Source of the DNA: Bacillota bacterium
GTDB lineage: Bacteria > Bacillota > Sulfobacillia > Sulfobacillales > Sulfobacillaceae
Length of the DNA stretch: 57,394 nt
Reading direction: 5' to 3'
NCBI GenBank assembly: GCA_023511625.1
Contig: JAIMBD010000015.1
Span: forward strand, 1-57,394
A model generated the notes under the pieces. It searched no databases. It saw only the letters and a list, made by a program, of their open reading frames with translations, and was not told where the DNA came from. Shown piece after piece: positions 16,420-28,373 of this stretch. Each line of letters starts with the position of its first letter. Within the stretch, counting starts at the first letter, position 1. The translations under genes were made by a program, and so were the position numbers.

Positions 16420-16764
16420 TTAGAGCGCCCGCCAGAGATACCAAAGGACGGCCAGGCCCACAAGCCCCAGTCCGGCGCCGATGGCCAAAGGCAGGCCGGT
16501 CTGCGGCAGGGGACGGTTCTCGAGGAGGCTTCGGCGATTGCGGTAATACATCAAGGTGGCGGCGGAGACGAGGCCGGTGCCGGACCCCACCAGGAACAGG
16601 CCCAAGAATCCCGACGCTCGGCCCCGGTGGGCCTCCAGGTGCAGGAAGAGGTCAAATTTGGAGGCGACGAATCCAAAGGCCATCAAGGCGATTCCGGTGC
16701 GCAGCCAGGCGAGGAAGGTGCGCTCGTTGGCGAGGAGCGCGCGCGGATCGGGCCGGTGTTCGAT
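16420..16764 (-). CDS. DUF202 (YidH-like) inner-membrane protein with an apparent ATC start
   Basis: A protein of 114 residues if it starts at 16764. The conserved DUF202 signature DPRALLANERTFLAWLRTGI is present, followed by three hydrophobic segments (GIALMAFGFVASKFDLF, FLGLFLVGSGTGLVSAATLMY and LAIGAGLGLVGLAVLWYLW). Function is unknown for the family. The signature lies upstream of the first ATG (16683) and TTG (16686). Before it, the frame offers only an ATC at 16762-16764, placed seven bases after a perfect AAAGGAGGT. Starting at the TTG or ATG would delete the signature, so I prefer the ATC. The gene lies alone, convergent with the tRNA cluster. Confidence 0.8.
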   Translation of the reverse strand: MEHRPDPRALLANERTFLAWLRTGIALMAFGFVASKFDLFLHLEAHRGRASGFLGLFLVGSGTGLVSAATLMYYRNRRSLLENRPLPQTGLPLAIGAGLGLVGLAVLWYLWRAL

Positions 16765-16815
16765 GGCGGCACCTCCTTTCCCCGAAGCGAGTCGCCGGCG
16801 GTTCGTCTCCGGCTA

Positions 16816-17694
16816 GTGTACCCTGCCGATGACCCCGAAGTGTGGGTGTGGGAAGGCGACGCCGGCGCGGTGCTGCAAACGCTGCCGCAAAGCTGGCGCT
16901 TTCGCTGCATTTACTGGGACCCTCCGTTTTTCACCGGGCGGGACCGGCGCGGCGACCGGGGGGCGTTCGTCGACGCCTGGGACTCCTTGGGGGAGTACCT
17001 GGCGGTCATGCGCCGGCATTGGGAGGCGATGGCGGAGCGCCTGCGCCCGGACGGATTCTTCGCGCTGCACTGCGATTGGCACGCCTCGCACTATCTTAAG
17101 GTGTTGGGCGATGCCATCTTCGGCTACGACCAGTTTCGCAACGAGATCGTCTGGCACTACACCGGGCGGCGCCAAGGCGCGCGCTGGCGCCTGAACGCCA
17201 AGCACGACGTGATCCTGGTGTGGGCCAAAAGCCGCCGCGCGCTCATGCACCCGCTCTTTGAGCCCTGGGATCGCGCCCAGTACGTGCGCATGAAGCGTCA
17301 AAAAGTCCACCGCGACGAGGAGGGGCGCGAGTGGATCTGGGGACATCGGGGCCGCGGGCGCTCCCACGCCTACCGCATCTACCTCGACGAGGTGGTGCGC
17401 CAAGGGCGCGCGCTCGATGACGTCTGGGATCTGCCCATCCTCAACACCAGCGACCGCGAGCGGGTCGGCTACCCCACTCAAAAGCCGACCGCGCTGTTGC
17501 GGCGCCTGCTGGCTCTGCTCACGGATCCCGGCGACTTGGTGGGCGACTTCATGGCTGGATCCGGGACCACCGGCGTGGCGGCGCGGGAACTCGGGCGGCG
17601 GGCCGTGCTGGCCGACGTAAACCCCGAGGCGGTGGCAGTGATGATCGAGCGCCTTCGGCCGGGGGCCAAAATTGACAGTCCTTTGCCGCCGTGA
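16816..17694 (+). CDS. Solitary DNA adenine (N6) methyltransferase, beta-type
   Basis: About 292 residues. The catalytic DPPF (in YWDPPFFTGRDR) comes early and the SAM-binding DFMAGSGTTGVAA late, preceded by YPTQKPTALLRRLL. This is the motif order of beta-class m6A/m4C methyltransferases. The central part (RRQGARWRLNAKHDVILVWA and the region after it) probably holds target recognition. No restriction gene is adjacent, so it is an orphan enzyme by context, inserted between the tRNAs and rpmG. The start is uncertain: GTG 16816 is the first suitable codon and lacks a clear ribosome site. The end overlaps the rpmG promoter. Confidence 0.85.
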   Translation: MYPADDPEVWVWEGDAGAVLQTLPQSWRFRCIYWDPPFFTGRDRRGDRGAFVDAWDSLGEYLAVMRRHWEAMAERLRPDGFFALHCDWHASHYLKVLGDAIFGYDQFRNEIVWHYTGRRQGARWRLNAKHDVILVWAKSRRALMHPLFEPWDRAQYVRMKRQKVHRDEEGREWIWGHRGRGRSHAYRIYLDEVVRQGRALDDVWDLPILNTSDRERVGYPTQKPTALLRRLLALLTDPGDLVGDFMAGSGTTGVAARELGRRAVLADVNPEAVAVMIERLRPGAKIDSPLPP

Positions 17695-18851: not shown

Positions 18852-19277
18852 GTGCCGAAGAAAGTGACCGGGGTGATCAAGCTCCAGATCCCAGCCGGCA
18901 AGGCCACGCCGGCGCCGCCGGTGGGCCCGGCCCTGGGTCAGCACGGGGTCAACATCATGGCCTTCGTCAAGGAATACAACGAGCGCACGGCCAACCAGGT
19001 CGGGCTGATCATTCCGGTGGAGATCACCGTCTACGAAGACCGCTCGTTCACGTTCGTGACCAAGACGCCGCCGGCGGCAGTGTTGATCAAAAAAGCGTTG
19101 GGACTGGAGACGGCGTCGCCTACCCCCAACACCAAAAAGGTAGGCAAGCTGACGCGGGCGCAGGTGCGCGAGATCGCCGAAACCAAGATGCCGGACTTAA
19201 ACGCCAGCAGTCTGGAGGCGGCCATGCGCATGATCGAAGGCACGGCCCGCAGCATGGGGGTCGAGGTCGGCGACTGA
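18852..19277 (+). CDS. rplK: Ribosomal protein L11
   Basis: 141 residues with GTG start 18852 (AGGGA upstream), encoding a mature N terminus [40 protein letters not shown] is the thiopeptide- and 23S-binding N domain, and the C domain ends [14 protein letters not shown]. It binds the GTPase-associated centre of 23S rRNA. It is paired with rplA downstream. Confidence 0.96.
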
Positions 19278-19324: not shown

Positions 19325-20026
19325 ATGAAGCACGGCAAGCGGTATCTCGAGGCGGCGGCTGCGGTGGATCGCACCCGCCTGTACGAGCCAGAGGAAGCGC
19401 TGGAGTTGGCCAAGCGGCTCAGCCGGGCCAAGTTTGACGAGACGGTGGAGGTAGCGGTGCGTCTCGGCGTCGACCCCCGCCACTCCGACCAGATGGTGCG
19501 CGGGGCGGTCACCTTGCCCCGCGGCATCGGCAAGACGCGCCGGGTGCTGGTCTTTGCCAAGGGCGAAAAGGCCCGCGAGGCGGAGGAGGCCGGCGCGGAC
19601 TGGGTGGGGGCAGAGGAGCTGGTGGATCGCATCCAGCAGGGGTGGACCGATTTCGACACCGCCGTCGCCACGCCTGACATGATGGGGTTGGTGGGTCGGT
19701 TGGGGAAGATCCTCGGACCGAAGGGGCTCATGCCCAACCCCCGCACCGGGACGGTGACGTTTGAGCTGCGCCAAGCCATTGCCGAGATCAAGGCCGGGAA
19801 GATCGAGTTTCGCACCGACAAGGGGGGGATCGTTCACGCCCCCATCGGCCGCGTCAGCTTCGAGGTGGAGGCCTTGGCGGAAAACTTGGCCGCTCTCATC
19901 GACGCCCTGGTCAAAGCCAAACCCCAGGCCGCGAGGGGTACCTATATCAAGGGGATCACCATCTCGACGACGATGGGGCCGGGCATTCCCGTCAACCCGC
20001 ACGCGGTACAGCGGGTGGCGGTCTGA
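19325..20026 (+). CDS. rplA: Ribosomal protein L1
   Basis: 233 residues of standard length, [17 protein letters not shown]..., with [23 protein letters not shown]-type core segments, GPKGLMPNP and [15 protein letters not shown] near the end. It forms the L1 stalk and in many bacteria represses its own operon. GGGGAG lies before ATG 19325. It is followed by a hairpin and then ddl, not by rplJ as is usual. Confidence 0.96.
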
Positions 20027-20048
20027 CGCCGGCGGAAGGCGAAGACCA

Positions 20049-20072
20049 GGGGCGGGCTGAAGGGCCCGCCCC
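20049..20072 (+). terminator. Hairpin after rplA
   Basis: GGGGCGGGC (20049-20057) pairs with GCCCGCCCC (20064-20072) around a six-base loop, 22 bases after the rplA stop. There is no long T-run, so it may be only a partial terminator. Confidence 0.6.
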
Positions 20073-20164
20073 CCGCGTTTCCGATGGGGAAAATCGCGGG
20101 CCGGTCTCCCCTCGCCTCGGGGGCCGAGAGCGTATATCTTAAAGGGCGAGGAGGCGATGGCGCG

Positions 20165-21118
20165 ATGCGGGTGGCGGTGGTGGCGGGAGGGCTGTCGGAG
20201 GAGCACGCCATCTCGGTAGCCAGCGGCACGATGGTGGTCGAGGCGCTGGCGGGACACGCCCGCTACCAACCGGCGCTCGTCGTCATCGGCCGAGATGGGG
20301 TCTGGCGCCTTGGGCCAACGGAGGCAGCCGGTGTCACCGGCATCTCCCGGGCCAAGGCCACCGCCGAGGGGGTGCGACTGCTCGCCGAGTTCGACCTGGC
20401 ATTTTTGGCCCTGCACGGCCGATTTGGCGAGGACGGGACCATCCAAGGGGTACTGGAGTACCTGGGACTGCCTTACACCGGAAGCCGCCTGTTGGCGTCG
20501 GCCTTGGCCATGGACAAACGGCGGGCCAAGCAGTGGTTCCGCGCGCACGGCCTGCCGGTGCCGCGCGACGTAGCGCCGGAGGCGGGGATGGAGTTTCCGG
20601 TGGTGGTCAAGCCGAACTGTGGGGGATCCAGTGTGGGGGTGCAGCTGGTCGATTCGCCAGATGCGCTGGAGGCGGCCTTGGCTGCGGCCGGCCCTGGTGC
20701 CCTGGTGGAGGAGCGGCTTTTGGGGCGCGAAGTGACCTGCGCAGTGTTGGAGGACCTGTCGGGGGAGGTCGAGGCCCTGCCGGTGATCGAAATCGTTCCC
20801 CGTCGGGGGCGGTTTTTCGACTTCGCGGCCAAGTACGAGGAAGGGGGTGCCGACGAGGTGTGCCCGGCGCCGCTCGCCGTGGAGGTGACGGCCCGGATCC
20901 AGGCGCTGGCCGTCGCCGCACACCAGGCGTTGGGATGCCGCCACTTTTCGCGCACCGACATGATCCTCACTGCCGACGGCCCCGTGATCCTGGAGACCAA
21001 CACCATCCCCGGCTTGACCCCGGCCTCCCTCTTGCCCAAGGCGGCCCGGGCAGCCGGGATGAGCTTTGCCCAGCTGGTGGAACGGCTCTTGCGCCTGGCG
21101 GAACGCGACGGGCCCTGA
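20165..21118 (+). CDS. ddl: D-alanine--D-alanine ligase
   Basis: A 317-residue ATP-grasp ligase that makes D-Ala-D-Ala for peptidoglycan. Seen are GGLSEEHAISVASG near the N terminus, LHGRFGEDGTIQGVLEYLG, VVVKPNCGGSSVGV (ATP loop), the Y in AKYEEGG, RTDMIL and the metal-binding ETNTIPGLTPASLLPKAA end. All expected catalytic residues appear intact. The start ATG 20165 follows GAGGAGG by 10 or so bases. Its position between rplA and rplJ is unusual; ddl normally sits with cell-wall genes. Confidence 0.93.
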   Translation: MRVAVVAGGLSEEHAISVASGTMVVEALAGHARYQPALVVIGRDGVWRLGPTEAAGVTGISRAKATAEGVRLLAEFDLAFLALHGRFGEDGTIQGVLEYLGLPYTGSRLLASALAMDKRRAKQWFRAHGLPVPRDVAPEAGMEFPVVVKPNCGGSSVGVQLVDSPDALEAALAAAGPGALVEERLLGREVTCAVLEDLSGEVEALPVIEIVPRRGRFFDFAAKYEEGGADEVCPAPLAVEVTARIQALAVAAHQALGCRHFSRTDMILTADGPVILETNTIPGLTPASLLPKAARAAGMSFAQLVERLLRLAERDGP

Positions 21119-21148
21119 GAAGGCGGGTGGAAGGGGGAGGGAGGGGCC

Positions 21149-22111
21149 ATGACCGAGCACAGCCCGCGCCGCGGCGCCGGCCGCCGCGGCACCGAGACGC
21201 GGGACGAGGTACCGTTTAGCATCATCCAATTGCAGTACTTCTGCACCGTGATGCGGATGGGCTCGCTGGCCAAGGCGGCGGAGCTGCTGTTCGTGACGCC
21301 CGAGGCGGTGGGCGCTCAGATTCGCAAGCTGGAACAGAGTCTCGGCGTCAAGCTGACGTCCCACCGGCGCGGGCACTGGCAGCCTACCCCTGAAGGCCGC
21401 CAGTTGCTCCAGCGCGCGGAGGTCATCTTGCGCCAGCTGCACGAGCTGGAACAGGCGGTAGGCCACCGGCCGGCCAAACCGCGCCTGCGCCTGTGGGCGG
21501 TCCGGGCCGCGGCGGAGACGTGGATTCCGCGCCTCGTGCGCGACCTGGGGCTGGTGGCGGCCTGGGACTTAGAAATCCGGACCGCGTTGTCGCGCGACAT
21601 CGTCCAAGCCGTGGCCAGCGGCACGGCAGACATCGGATTGGTGGGGCTGTTCAACCAGGAGGTGGAGGCAGCGGCAGTGCGCCGCGAGCATCGGCTGCAC
21701 CTGTCCCTGCTGGCCGAAGACCCCATGGTGGTGGTGATGCCGCGCGAGCGGGCGCAGGCATTGGCGCACCGCCGCGTGGGCTACGGGGAACTGGCCCGAT
21801 TAGGGCCCTTGATCTTTCTTGAGGACATGCCCTTGCGCGCAGAGATCCACCGCCACCTGTCGCGCCTTGGCATCTCGTACGCCGACCGGGTGCTGAGCAA
21901 CGATTTCCATGCCATCCTGGCCATGGTGGGGGCCGGGCTCGGGGTGGGACTCTTGCCCCGCATGGCCACCGAGCAGGTGTCGGAAGCAATGGCGGTGTTG
22001 CCCCTGCACCCGCCCTTGGTGCGGGGGATCTATTGGGTGGTGCGCGAGGCCGAAGGGACGCGGTGGGATGAGCTGCGCGAGGCCTTGGCCGCCATCGCCG
22101 CCCCGTCGTAG
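21149..22111 (+). CDS. LysR-family transcriptional regulator
   Basis: 320 residues. An N-terminal tail of about 25 residues precedes the winged helix-turn-helix (IIQLQYFCTVMRMGSLAKAA, FVTPEAVGAQIRKLEQSLGV). A substrate-binding domain follows, with TADIGLVGLFNQE and GAGLGVGLLPRMA. It starts 30 bases after ddl with GGGAGGGAGGGG before the ATG, so ddl and this gene are probably one transcript. LysR genes usually face their target divergently; here there is none upstream, so the target and ligand are unknown. Confidence 0.88.
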   Translation: MTEHSPRRGAGRRGTETRDEVPFSIIQLQYFCTVMRMGSLAKAAELLFVTPEAVGAQIRKLEQSLGVKLTSHRRGHWQPTPEGRQLLQRAEVILRQLHELEQAVGHRPAKPRLRLWAVRAAAETWIPRLVRDLGLVAAWDLEIRTALSRDIVQAVASGTADIGLVGLFNQEVEAAAVRREHRLHLSLLAEDPMVVVMPRERAQALAHRRVGYGELARLGPLIFLEDMPLRAEIHRHLSRLGISYADRVLSNDFHAILAMVGAGLGVGLLPRMATEQVSEAMAVLPLHPPLVRGIYWVVREAEGTRWDELREALAAIAAPS

Positions 22112-22147
22112 ACCCCTGCCCGGCAAGACCTCGCCGGGCAGGGGGGT
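22112..22147. terminator. Hairpin between convergent lysR and NTF2-like gene
   Basis: ACCCCTGCCCGGC (22112-22124) pairs with GCCGGGCAGGGGGGT (22133-22147), an eight-base loop and two extra Gs bulged. It begins one base after the lysR stop and can serve both strands. Confidence 0.75.
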
Positions 22148-22150
22148 CCG

Positions 22151-22732
22151 TCAGCGTTTGGCCTCAAGCTCTGCCAAGATGGCGCGGTGCGTGGCCTGCA
22201 CCCATTCCGGAGTGACGAGGTCGCTCGGGTCGATGGGCTCCACGGTGGCGCTGGTGGCATCGACATACAGGTGCTCGCCGATGAGGCGAGCCTCGGCGTC
22301 ATACGGCCAGATGAAGGCCTGGCGAGTCTGAAAGTGGTAGTGGCGATCCTTGTCGGGCACCTCTACGCCGAACTCGGCCAAGATGTGCCCCGTGGCGAGG
22401 AAGTGGAACGTCAGCTCGTCGGCCAGTCCCCAGTCGGCCACGGCGATTTGGTCGTCCGAGTTCCACATCACGAAGCGCTGCGCGGCTCGGTAGAAGTCCA
22501 CCACGGCCGCCTTGCCCCGCAATACCACCGGTTTCCCCCAGTTGATGCGGTAGACCGGCTCATCCACCATCAGGTCGGGGGCGACGATGCGGTCGAACTC
22601 GCCGGCGAGTTCCAGATGGACGTGGAGGCGATAGTTTTCCAAGATGCGCCGGTGGTGGGGGTTGGTGGTGGTTTCGAGCAACCGGGTCACCGGGTCCATG
22701 ACGTGGGCGATCTGGTACTGAAAGCGGTTCAT
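22151..22732 (-). CDS. NTF2/SnoaL-like fold protein of unknown function
   Basis: 193 residues from ATG 22732. The body has the look of an NTF2-like domain: HRRILENYRLHVHLELAGEF, ELVDEP-like segment LMVDEPVYRINWGK, GKAAVVDFYRAA, and a run of beta strands (ELTFHFLATG, QAFIWPYDAEARLIGEHLYV). Such folds serve as isomerases, hydrolases or ligand-binding proteins, so function cannot be named. The frame is open upstream of 22732 but that part is Pro/Arg-rich and unlikely to be coding; a purine-rich site lies too far off to decide the start. It lies in the rplA-rplJ insertion, convergent with lysR. Confidence 0.65.
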   Translation of the reverse strand: MNRFQYQIAHVMDPVTRLLETTTNPHHRRILENYRLHVHLELAGEFDRIVAPDLMVDEPVYRINWGKPVVLRGKAAVVDFYRAAQRFVMWNSDDQIAVADWGLADELTFHFLATGHILAEFGVEVPDKDRHYHFQTRQAFIWPYDAEARLIGEHLYVDATSATVEPIDPSDLVTPEWVQATHRAILAELEAKR

Positions 22733-22899
22733 CGGCGTGTGCAGGGGCGGGCTTGGAGTGGCCCCCTCCCCCTCCTCCTTTCCGCGTGCGCGAAGTGGGA
22801 GCCGTCCCGAGCTCCTCGACGGTGCCGGCCGGAAGTCGGGCAAGCCCGCACGGTCGGTCGGGTCTTCGGTTCTCGCGGTTTCGGCGATTCCCTTTTGGA

Positions 22900-23274
22900 T
22901 TAATCGTCAGGCTCGTGCTTGTCAAGCCCCAAGGAGGCGGTGGGCGCCTGGCGGAGGGGGAGGGTTGCGACGGCAGACCACAGGGGTTCGGTCCGTGGCA
23001 CTCGCGCCACGCCACCGATGTTGGTCAGGGGCAGCGCCAGCCGACGGGCCAACCCAGGCAGGATGCCGTCCGTCACCGGGTCCTCCACCACCAGGTAATT
23101 GCTTCCCACATGGACCAACACCCCCGTGATGGTGGAGGCGTGGTCGACGGCGTACAGCACGCTTAATCGTACGCGCGCGCCTTGAAGGTCCTTCAGGTAG
23201 TCGACGAAATCGGGCGGCCACGGCGGACTGGTCGTAGCGCCGTCCGCGGGGGGCACGGGCAGGTGGGACGCCAT
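22900..23274 (-). CDS. Small unknown protein, possibly LSm-like
   Basis: 124 residues from ATG 23274, with AGGAGGT eight bases upstream, a strong site that supports expression. A Pro-rich head is followed by VDYLKDLQGARVRLSVLYA, ITGVLVHVGSNYLVVEDP and LPLTNIGGVARV. The strand pattern, with a glycine-centred turn and VGSNYLVVED, recalls Sm-like small beta-barrel proteins (for example DUF2642-type spore proteins of Bacillota). This is resemblance only. It is on the minus strand, 167 bases before the NTF2-like gene, and probably heads a two-gene transcript. Confidence 0.6.
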   Translation of the reverse strand: MASHLPVPPADGATTSPPWPPDFVDYLKDLQGARVRLSVLYAVDHASTITGVLVHVGSNYLVVEDPVTDGILPGLARRLALPLTNIGGVARVPRTEPLWSAVATLPLRQAPTASLGLDKHEPDD

Positions 23275-23434
23275 GGCGGTGCACCTCCTGCAAACGGCGT
23301 GGCGGGAGGCCTTGCCTTCTCGCCCAACCCTATGCCGGCGGGCGGTCGTCTATGTGCTTTCGGGGAGGGGTGCCCGAGCAGGGGGATTGAGGGCCCGGCC
23401 AGGCCTCGTCCGTGCTCCAAGGCCTGGCGTTCCC

Positions 23435-23463
23435 TTGATCCCAGGGCGGGGCCGTGGTAGGAT
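23435..23463 (+). promoter_or_regulatory. Probable promoter of rplJ-rplL
   Basis: TTGATC at 23435-23440 and TAGGAT at 23458-23463 with 17 bases between, just before the L10 leader. The whole 326-base gap from 23275 to 23600 holds only this promoter and the leader. Confidence 0.6.
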
Positions 23464-23477
23464 GAGCCTAAGAGCCC

Positions 23478-23588
23478 ATGACGGCAGGTGCCTTGTGCGG
23501 CTTAATACCCTGCCCAGGTCAGCGGAAGACGGCATCGGCGGTCGAGCCGTGCACCTCTGCCTTTGACGCGGGCGGGGGCTATTTTTTT
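23478..23588 (+). ncRNA. Ribosomal protein L10 leader RNA
   Basis: The sequence GACGGCAGGTGCC, then CGGCTTAATACCCTGCC with CAGGT, matches the conserved core of the L10 leader (kink-turn with GCAGG and CCTGCC arms and the GGCTTAAT bulge). It ends in a G-rich segment and a run of seven Ts just before the rplJ ribosome binding site. L10 in complex with L12 is known to bind such leaders and repress rplJ-rplL. The later half (23530-23588) may form alternative hairpins acting as an attenuator. Confidence 0.8.
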
Positions 23589-23600
23589 GGAGGTGGTGCG

Positions 23601-24125
23601 ATGCCGACCCCACGCAAGGCGGCGATCATCGCCGAAACGCGGGAGGAGCTCGAGCAGGCAGCTGCCGCCGTGTTGGCCGACTACCGAGGGATGACGGTCC
23701 AGCAGATGACGCAGTTGCGCCGCACTTTGGCCCAACAGGGCGTGACGCTGCGGGTGATCAAAAACACCCTGCTCCGCCTGGCGGCCGAGGGCGCAGGCAT
23801 CGAAGGGCTGGACGCCTACTTGGCGGGGCCGACGGCGGTGGCCTTCTCGCGCCAGGACCCCGTGGCTCCGGCCAAAGCCTTGAACCAAGCCATCCGCGAC
23901 TACCGGCGGATGGAGATCAAGGGCGGAGTCTTGGGGCGGTCGGCCATCGGACCGGACCAGGTCCGGGCGTTGGCGGAACTACCGCCGCGCGAGGTGTTGG
24001 TAGGTCAATTGGTGTCGGCCCTGGCCAGTCCCATGCAGCGCGTGGTGTGGGTGTTCAATGCGCCCCTGGCCAACTTGGCGCGCGTGCTCGACCAGATTCG
24101 GCAGCAGCGCGAGGCCGCGGGTTGA
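23601..24125 (+). CDS. rplJ: Ribosomal protein L10
   Basis: 174 residues beginning MPTPRKAAIIAETREELEQA, with VLADYRGMTVQQMTQLRR, LRVIKNTLLRLA and a C-terminal helix (VWVFNAPLANLARVLDQIRQQRE) that carries L12 dimers. GGAGGTGGTGCG precedes the ATG. It forms the base of the L7/L12 stalk and is likely autoregulated through the leader at 23478-23588. Confidence 0.95.
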   Translation: MPTPRKAAIIAETREELEQAAAAVLADYRGMTVQQMTQLRRTLAQQGVTLRVIKNTLLRLAAEGAGIEGLDAYLAGPTAVAFSRQDPVAPAKALNQAIRDYRRMEIKGGVLGRSAIGPDQVRALAELPPREVLVGQLVSALASPMQRVVWVFNAPLANLARVLDQIRQQREAAG

Positions 24126-24167: not shown

Positions 24168-24557
24168 ATGGCCAAAGTCGAAGAGATCATCGAAGCCGTC
24201 AAGGGGATGAACGTGCTGGAGCTCGCGCAGTTGGTGAAGGCACTGGAAGAGGAGTTCGGCGTGACGGCTGCGGCCCCGGTGGCAGTGGCGGCGGCACCGG
24301 TAGCGGCGGGTCCTGCGGCACCGGCAGCCCAGGAGGAAGCCGAGCAGACGGAATTCGATGTGATCCTCACGGCTGCGGGAGACAAGAAGGTCCAGGTCAT
24401 CAAGGTGGTCCGGGAATTGACGGGTCTTTCTCTGACGGATGCCAAGGCGCTGGTGGACGGCGCGCCCAAGGCAGTCAAGGAGAAGATCTCCCGGGCCGAC
24501 GCCGAAGCGGCGAAGGCCAAGCTGGAAGAGGCTGGCGCGACGGTCGAGATCAAATAG
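24168..24557 (+). CDS. rplL: Ribosomal protein L7/L12
   Basis: 129 residues. The N-terminal dimer helix ([25 protein letters not shown]) is joined by an Ala/Pro/Val hinge to the factor-binding C domain ([40 protein letters not shown]). TAGGAGGT stands before the ATG. It recruits GTPase factors to the ribosome. Confidence 0.96.

Positions 24558-24743: not shown

Positions 24744-28373
<3,630 letters not shown>

Follow-up and report, generated by a model that had tools for sequence, protein, structure and literature searches.

The rplA-rplJ joint of a conserved ribosomal gene string in the Sulfobacillales: a recurring ddl gene and changing cargo

Chromosomal integration hotspots occur between conserved core genes. 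Among the 38 operons ranked in a comparative study, the gene string rplKAJL-rpoBC came out as the most conserved, and the splits detected in it in Proteobacteria lie mostly at the rplKA/rplJL boundary (PMC4481853). For rplJL of Bacillus subtilis, a second paper describes a mapped sigma-A promoter, a 213-nucleotide (nt) leader and attenuation by L10(L12)4 (PMC4538822). Here we analyzed the same boundary, the joint between rplA and rplJ, in a stretch of 57,394 nt (the window) from a Bacillota bacterium of the Sulfobacillales (assembly GCA_023511625.1, contig JAIMBD010000015.1) and in its relatives. This order counts thermophilic acidophiles among its members.

The joint is the one that is split in Proteobacteria, so that its splitting as such is already known. 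The proteobacterial case consists of a few splits among 33 taxa (PMC4481853), whereas here, in another phylum, the joint is open order-wide, with ddl as a resident gene and changing cargo around it; this order-wide form is new. We found no paper on this joint in this lineage in the open-access literature, subscription journals being outside the search. Compared with B. subtilis rplJL (PMC4538822), the window has in common a predicted leader with an L10 target, a predicted terminator and a candidate promoter of its own, but it carries 3.4 kb of other genes before the leader, and attenuation is here a prediction from the sequence.

The joint in the window and across the order

In the window, rplA (end at 20026) and rplJ (start at 23598) are separated by 3.57 kb without any ribosomal gene. 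The first-pass annotation had described the rplA-rplJ link as broken by ddl, a LysR regulator and two other open reading frames (ORFs) facing both ways, and Pfam matches and the ORFs bore this out: ddl and the LysR gene lie on the plus strand and the two unnamed genes on the minus strand. The features of the region are as follows.

18852 to 19277, plus strand: rplK (L11), from the ORF list and the gene search
19325 to 20026, plus strand: rplA (L1), left border of the joint (PF00687)
20049 to 20072, plus strand: G+C-rich hairpin after rplA, without a U-tract (z -2.5; as good in 3/200 shuffles)
20165 to 21118, plus strand: ddl, D-alanine--D-alanine ligase (PF07478, PF01820), recurring resident of the joint
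21149 to 22111, plus strand: LysR-family regulator (PF00126, PF03466), cargo seen in this genome only
22113 to 22144, no strand assigned: 12-bp perfect hairpin separating convergent genes (z -4.4)
22151 to 22732, minus strand: 193-amino-acid (aa) protein, family unassigned, called NTF2-like in the first-pass annotation; by homology searches, cargo seen in this genome only
22900 to 23274, minus strand: 124-aa protein, family unassigned, called Sm-like in the first-pass annotation; cargo, by homology searches
23435 to 23463, plus strand: candidate rplJ promoter TTGATC-17-TAGGAT (8/12 consensus bases, which 4.8% of shuffles reach)
23457 to 23594, plus strand: L10 leader (RF00557) with attenuator-type hairpin and U-tract, covariance-model match
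23598 to 24125, plus strand: rplJ (L10), right border of the joint (PF00466)
24168 to 24557, plus strand: rplL (L7/L12), an ORF named from its sequence and place
24744 to 28373, plus strand: rpoB, from the ORF list and the gene search

We looked for a foreign composition in the four interval genes and saw none, their G+C content (0.64-0.70) and third-position G+C content (0.82-0.88) being like those of rplA and rpoB.

The window's genome and 60 relatives were searched for rplK, rplA, rplJ and the start of rpoB; 42 of these genomes belong to the window's order, taken with Sulfobacillus included, and 34 to its family. The rplA-rplJ gap was measurable in 24 of the 42 order genomes, the genes being split between contigs in 12 others and one of them not found in 6. 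It ranged from 573 to 22,068 nt and exceeded 1 kb in 20 of the 24. The neighboring joints were closed, with 50-102 nt between rplK and rplA in 38 of the 42 genomes and 550-919 nt between rplJ and rpoB, rplL inside, in 39. Outside the order, 17 of 19 genomes from other families of the class had rplA-rplJ gaps of 169-341 nt. We also sampled 108 other genomes of the phylum with a completeness of at least 90%. The pair was present in 105 and absent from 3, after exclusion of an extra rplA/rplJ copy in G132 and an extra rplJ piece in G120. These 105 genomes gave 103 gaps of 169-690 nt and one of 1,917 nt, and in the remaining one rplA and rplJ lie on opposite strands; the sample included three more members of the class, with gaps of 439, 439 and 589 nt. 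A gap above 1 kb was thus found in 1/104 genomes of the phylum sample versus 20/24 in the order. Of the joints compared in the string, the rplA-rplJ joint alone is open, and this state is as a rule confined to the order. The earlier proposal of an insertion is therefore supported by the gap comparison, although the insertion is order-wide and old and not peculiar to this genome.

A comparison with relatives had been set beforehand for the four genes between rplA and rplJ. Three of them were scattered or absent, which makes them incidental, and only ddl recurs at the relatives' joints.

ddl and the changing cargo

The window ddl matches TIGR01205 with 264.8 bits (cut-off 245.65); its frame is open from 20084 to 21118, with a likely start at 20165. 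Of the 42 order genomes, 26 have ddl at the joint, every time in the ribosomal direction (26/26). It lay downstream of rplA on the same contig and strand in 24 of these and just before rplJ in 2 broken assemblies. Among the 24 contiguous order cases, 15 had ddl between rplA and rplJ; the linkage cannot be told in 4 order genomes. This position is held across three families. The seven g9 genomes have a contiguous gap without ddl and the same Ddl type elsewhere in the genome. The five genomes of g4, g7 and g10 encode a different Ddl type elsewhere, and a block of VTT, MarR and MFS genes lies beside rplA or rplJ. Joint-type Ddl proteins and the moved g9 copies formed a single clade of 36 rows with a support of 100/100 (G027, a fragment, was left out of the tree). 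Mapped on the rplA+rplJ tree, "ddl at the joint" required 3 changes (41 of 43 rows scored), for which one gain and two losses would be the simplest account. When named genomes were scanned with the Ddl alignment, the best 80 matches were mostly distant Ddl proteins.

Directly before ddl, 17 genomes of two families carry a small gene, F5 (example L055:3092-3304), on a joint-linked contig in 15 and unlinked in 2 (G014, G022). F5 encodes about 70 residues with two hydrophobic stretches, as judged by eye, and matched no Pfam family above cut-off. The ratio of nonsynonymous to synonymous substitution rates (dN/dS) was 0.04-0.28 in the 6 of 7 pairs for which it could be computed; dN being below dS, F5 is a real gene. 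It stands alone at the joint of the 7 g9 genomes, where we read it as the footprint of a departed ddl. No F5 was detected in the two genomes of the window's genus or at the joint of 7 other genomes with ddl there.

Around ddl, the content of the joint changes from genome to genome. Gene maps were made with a crude codon-usage caller, which may miss or mis-start genes. Downstream of rplA, the genus-mate of the window (G001) has UbiA, ddl, hydantoinase A and B and an FAA hydrolase. Elsewhere we found a cobalamin operon (G002), SDH, MFS and chemotaxis genes (G005), an EAL-GGDEF protein and an ammonium transporter (G008), MacB-type genes (G036), and M1-peptidase and amidohydrolase genes (G038). 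Domain scans covered 143 of the 264 called cargo ORFs; two of them, of 44 and 59 proteins, listed 25 of 64 and 25 of 85 families. Among the matches listed, mobile-type genes comprised at least two OrfB_IS605, at least one IstB_IS21 and at least one Resolvase in the 44 proteins, and at least one Resolvase in the 59 proteins; given the share of ORFs scanned and the 25 families listed in each of these two scans, mobile genes are undercounted. The rplA-rplJ gap of G029 contains a HEARO RNA (L067:1589-1815, minus strand, 126 bits) and, by eye, an apparently degraded IscB-like ORF. G017 and G029 are 92-95% identical around the site, and the joint difference of about 1 kb between them is the G029 stretch with the HEARO RNA, lacking in G017. 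The 1,917-nt gap of G107, the only one above 1 kb in the phylum sample, contains an ORF named by eye as an rve-type transposase.

The other three genes of the window belong to this cargo. In the 61 genomes searched, the LysR gene had no match beyond its own genome at E ≤ 1e-20, and the NTF2-like gene none at E ≤ 0.001. The frame of the latter stays open to 22843, beyond its ORF. Its protein matched no Pfam, NCBIfam or PDB entry. Four Rhodococcus plasmid records encode relatives with 36-37% identity, and a Salipiger plasmid record gave a partial match. A paralog with 43% identity was observed in the window's own genome (L050, G000:C7:27257-27808); neither copy, used as query, matched the 60 relatives. 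The Sm-like protein had no Pfam or NCBIfam match and, in PDB, only RibD at E 0.97; two of three relatives scanned weakly matched the C-terminal SH3 domain of RimP (E 0.04 and 0.14). Single-sequence models of the two proteins (mean predicted local distance difference test scores of 42 for the NTF2-like and 46 for the Sm-like protein) were too poor for a fold search. Matches to the Sm-like gene were found in 17 other genomes, lying away from the joint in the 13 in which the joint is contiguous; within the order the count is 16 other genomes, with the gene located elsewhere in all 12 that allow a placement. The matches with a non-contiguous joint are those of G001, G016, G019 and G025, and in G001 visual inspection puts the gene next to a transporter gene on one side and an oxidoreductase gene on the other. 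A weak match in G044 resembles an S1-type protein by eye. We also observed, in 15 relatives (L003-L017), a conserved neighbor of roughly 260-340 aa at about 1 kb from the Sm-like gene, of which two copies scanned match a HipA-like kinase (PF20613); the window copy is without it.

Hairpins, promoter and L10 leader

The first-pass annotation had placed a hairpin to the left of the inserted genes and a new promoter with an L10 leader to their right, and had offered repaired regulation as one reading of the interval. The left hairpin, at 20049-20072, is real but has no U-tract; it may be a weak terminator or an mRNA 3' end. The hairpin between the convergent LysR and NTF2-like genes is probably a two-way terminator.

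The leader before rplJ matched RF00557 over the full length of the model with 28.3 bits, under the curated gathering score of 44, and E 0.0044. A predicted terminator hairpin at 23554-23578 lies ahead of rplJ and is followed by a U-tract (CTATTTTTTT). Of the 41 loci analyzed in addition to the window, 20 were submitted to the leader search, comprising 17 order members and 3 outgroups within the class. All 20 have a match to the leader ahead of rplJ, and 9 of these matches reach the gathering score. Since the three outgroups have a compact rplA-rplJ gap (201-266 nt), the leader is older than the insertions. The idea of a new promoter and repaired regulation is therefore not supported, and B. 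subtilis rplJL likewise has a promoter of its own (PMC4538822). We reject a recent break with repaired regulation because the leader also occurs in outgroups with a compact joint.

Evidence for the promoter is less even. A standard promoter scan of the window found none, the candidate at 23435-23463 falling below threshold. Upstream of rplJ, 40 of 42 regions were scanned, two having too little upstream sequence; they gave a mean of 8.9 matches versus 6.9 in shuffles, with at least 9 in 23 of the 40.

How the joint may have opened and stayed open

We consider it likely, with good confidence, that two transcription units, rplKA and rplJL-rpoBC, meet here at an old boundary tolerant of insertions, where ddl entered early and settled and cargo came later. 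Before the order arose, rplJL would already have had its own control region with an L10 attenuation leader, so that DNA could enter after rplA while rplJL stayed under its own control; this may be why the joint tolerated DNA. A DNA segment carrying ddl, probably together with the small membrane-like F5 gene before it, would have entered in the ribosomal direction in an ancestor of the order. From then on ddl would have stayed and been inherited vertically, while other genes were gained and lost on either side. It would later have left the joint in two lineages: in g9, where F5 remains alone, and in the clade of three genera, whose Ddl is of a different type and encoded elsewhere and whose joint is occupied by a different set of genes. 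F5 would have been lost from the window's genus, where the LysR, NTF2-like and Sm-like genes would be lineage-specific cargo. The joint ddl, the only match of this Ddl in the window's genome, may act as an anchor of the joint. The contiguous 5.25-kb joints of g7 have no ddl, which shows that such an anchor cannot explain everything.

Several observations weigh against this account. The gap was not measurable in 18 of the 42 order genomes, and 4 of the 24 measured gaps, all from g9, are below 1 kb (573-743 nt), a size reached by 3 of 104 phylum genomes (574, 589 and 690 nt); with this overlap between the smallest g9 gaps and the top of the ordinary range, openness is specific to the order only as a rule. 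The weakest leader match among the relatives has 33.8 bits and E 0.074. In the promoter scan, several g9, g14 and g4 regions and the three outgroups scored no better than their own shuffles, so that the case for an old rplJ promoter comes from the B. subtilis paper. Of the 26 genomes with ddl at the joint, 9 gave no F5 match at that place, and some F5 matches are weak (G012, E 0.004). The Ddl tree leaves its deep branching order open and its outgroup does not fall on one side of a branch, which leaves room for a second ddl transfer. Finally, in the g6 genomes G006 and G025, ddl lies 32-34 kb from rplA and rplJ is on another contig, so that the rplKA and rplJL halves may have come apart there.

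A dedicated integration hotspot, where a site-specific recombinase or an attachment site brings cargo to the joint, would also give variable content between fixed core flanks, genus by genus. The mobile-type genes of some intervals (the IS605, IS21 and Resolvase families, the HEARO/IscB remnant of G029 and the rve-type ORF of G107) speak for it. But the window has no tRNA at the joint, no inverted repeats were found in it, its four weak two-copy direct repeats lie away from the borders of the joint, and no recurring recombinase or integrase was seen among the matches listed for the 143 of 264 cargo ORFs scanned. The annotated cargo is mostly metabolic, with differences between genera, and the resident is a conserved cell-wall gene. 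We therefore regard such a hotspot as improbable.

A simple translocation, by which a rearrangement parted rplKA from rplJL and left ordinary chromosome between them, appears about as improbable. It would fit the distance of more than 32 kb between ddl and rplA in G006 and G025, and in Proteobacteria the block is broken mainly between rplKA and rplJL-rpoBC (PMC4481853). However, in all 24 contiguous cases the two halves retain their strand and relative order over no more than 22 kb, and the position of ddl is constant across three families.

The earlier suggestion of a functional module, in which ligase and adjacent LysR regulator act together, is hardly tenable: a LysR start 30 nt past the ddl stop on the same strand means that a shared transcript may exist, but at the joint of genus-mate G001 ddl is followed by hydantoinase genes, and neither this LysR gene (E ≤ 1e-20) nor the NTF2-like gene (E ≤ 0.001) has a match in the other 60 genomes, while the Sm-like gene lies away from the joint in 13 of 13 tellable cases. 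A conserved four-gene module is rejected as well, ddl being the only one of the four found at the joints of relatives.

A needed ddl, once installed in the joint, might have made a clean return to the compact string unlikely, and the joint would then have stayed open order-wide, collecting cargo. Read-through from rplA may moreover couple the supply of D-Ala-D-Ala to how fast ribosomes are made and cells grow, a link that may exist because ddl at the joint always follows rplA in the same direction. We offer this extension only tentatively and think it rather unlikely.

Beside the same ribosomal string, we observed at 16420-17694, between a tRNA cluster and rpmG-secE-nusG, a small membrane-protein-like ORF (minus strand, 88 aa) and an N6/N4 DNA methylase (PF01555), perhaps a second insertion. 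Upstream of rpmG, TTGACA-17-TACAAT was noted by eye.

Overall, these data suggest that even a highly conserved gene string has a joint where genes can settle order-wide, provided that the downstream unit is self-controlled. The series from compact joints to openings of more than 20 kb would lend itself to testing how the boundaries of transcription units direct the placement of acquired genes, and to asking whether a cell-wall gene at the joint is coupled to ribosome production.

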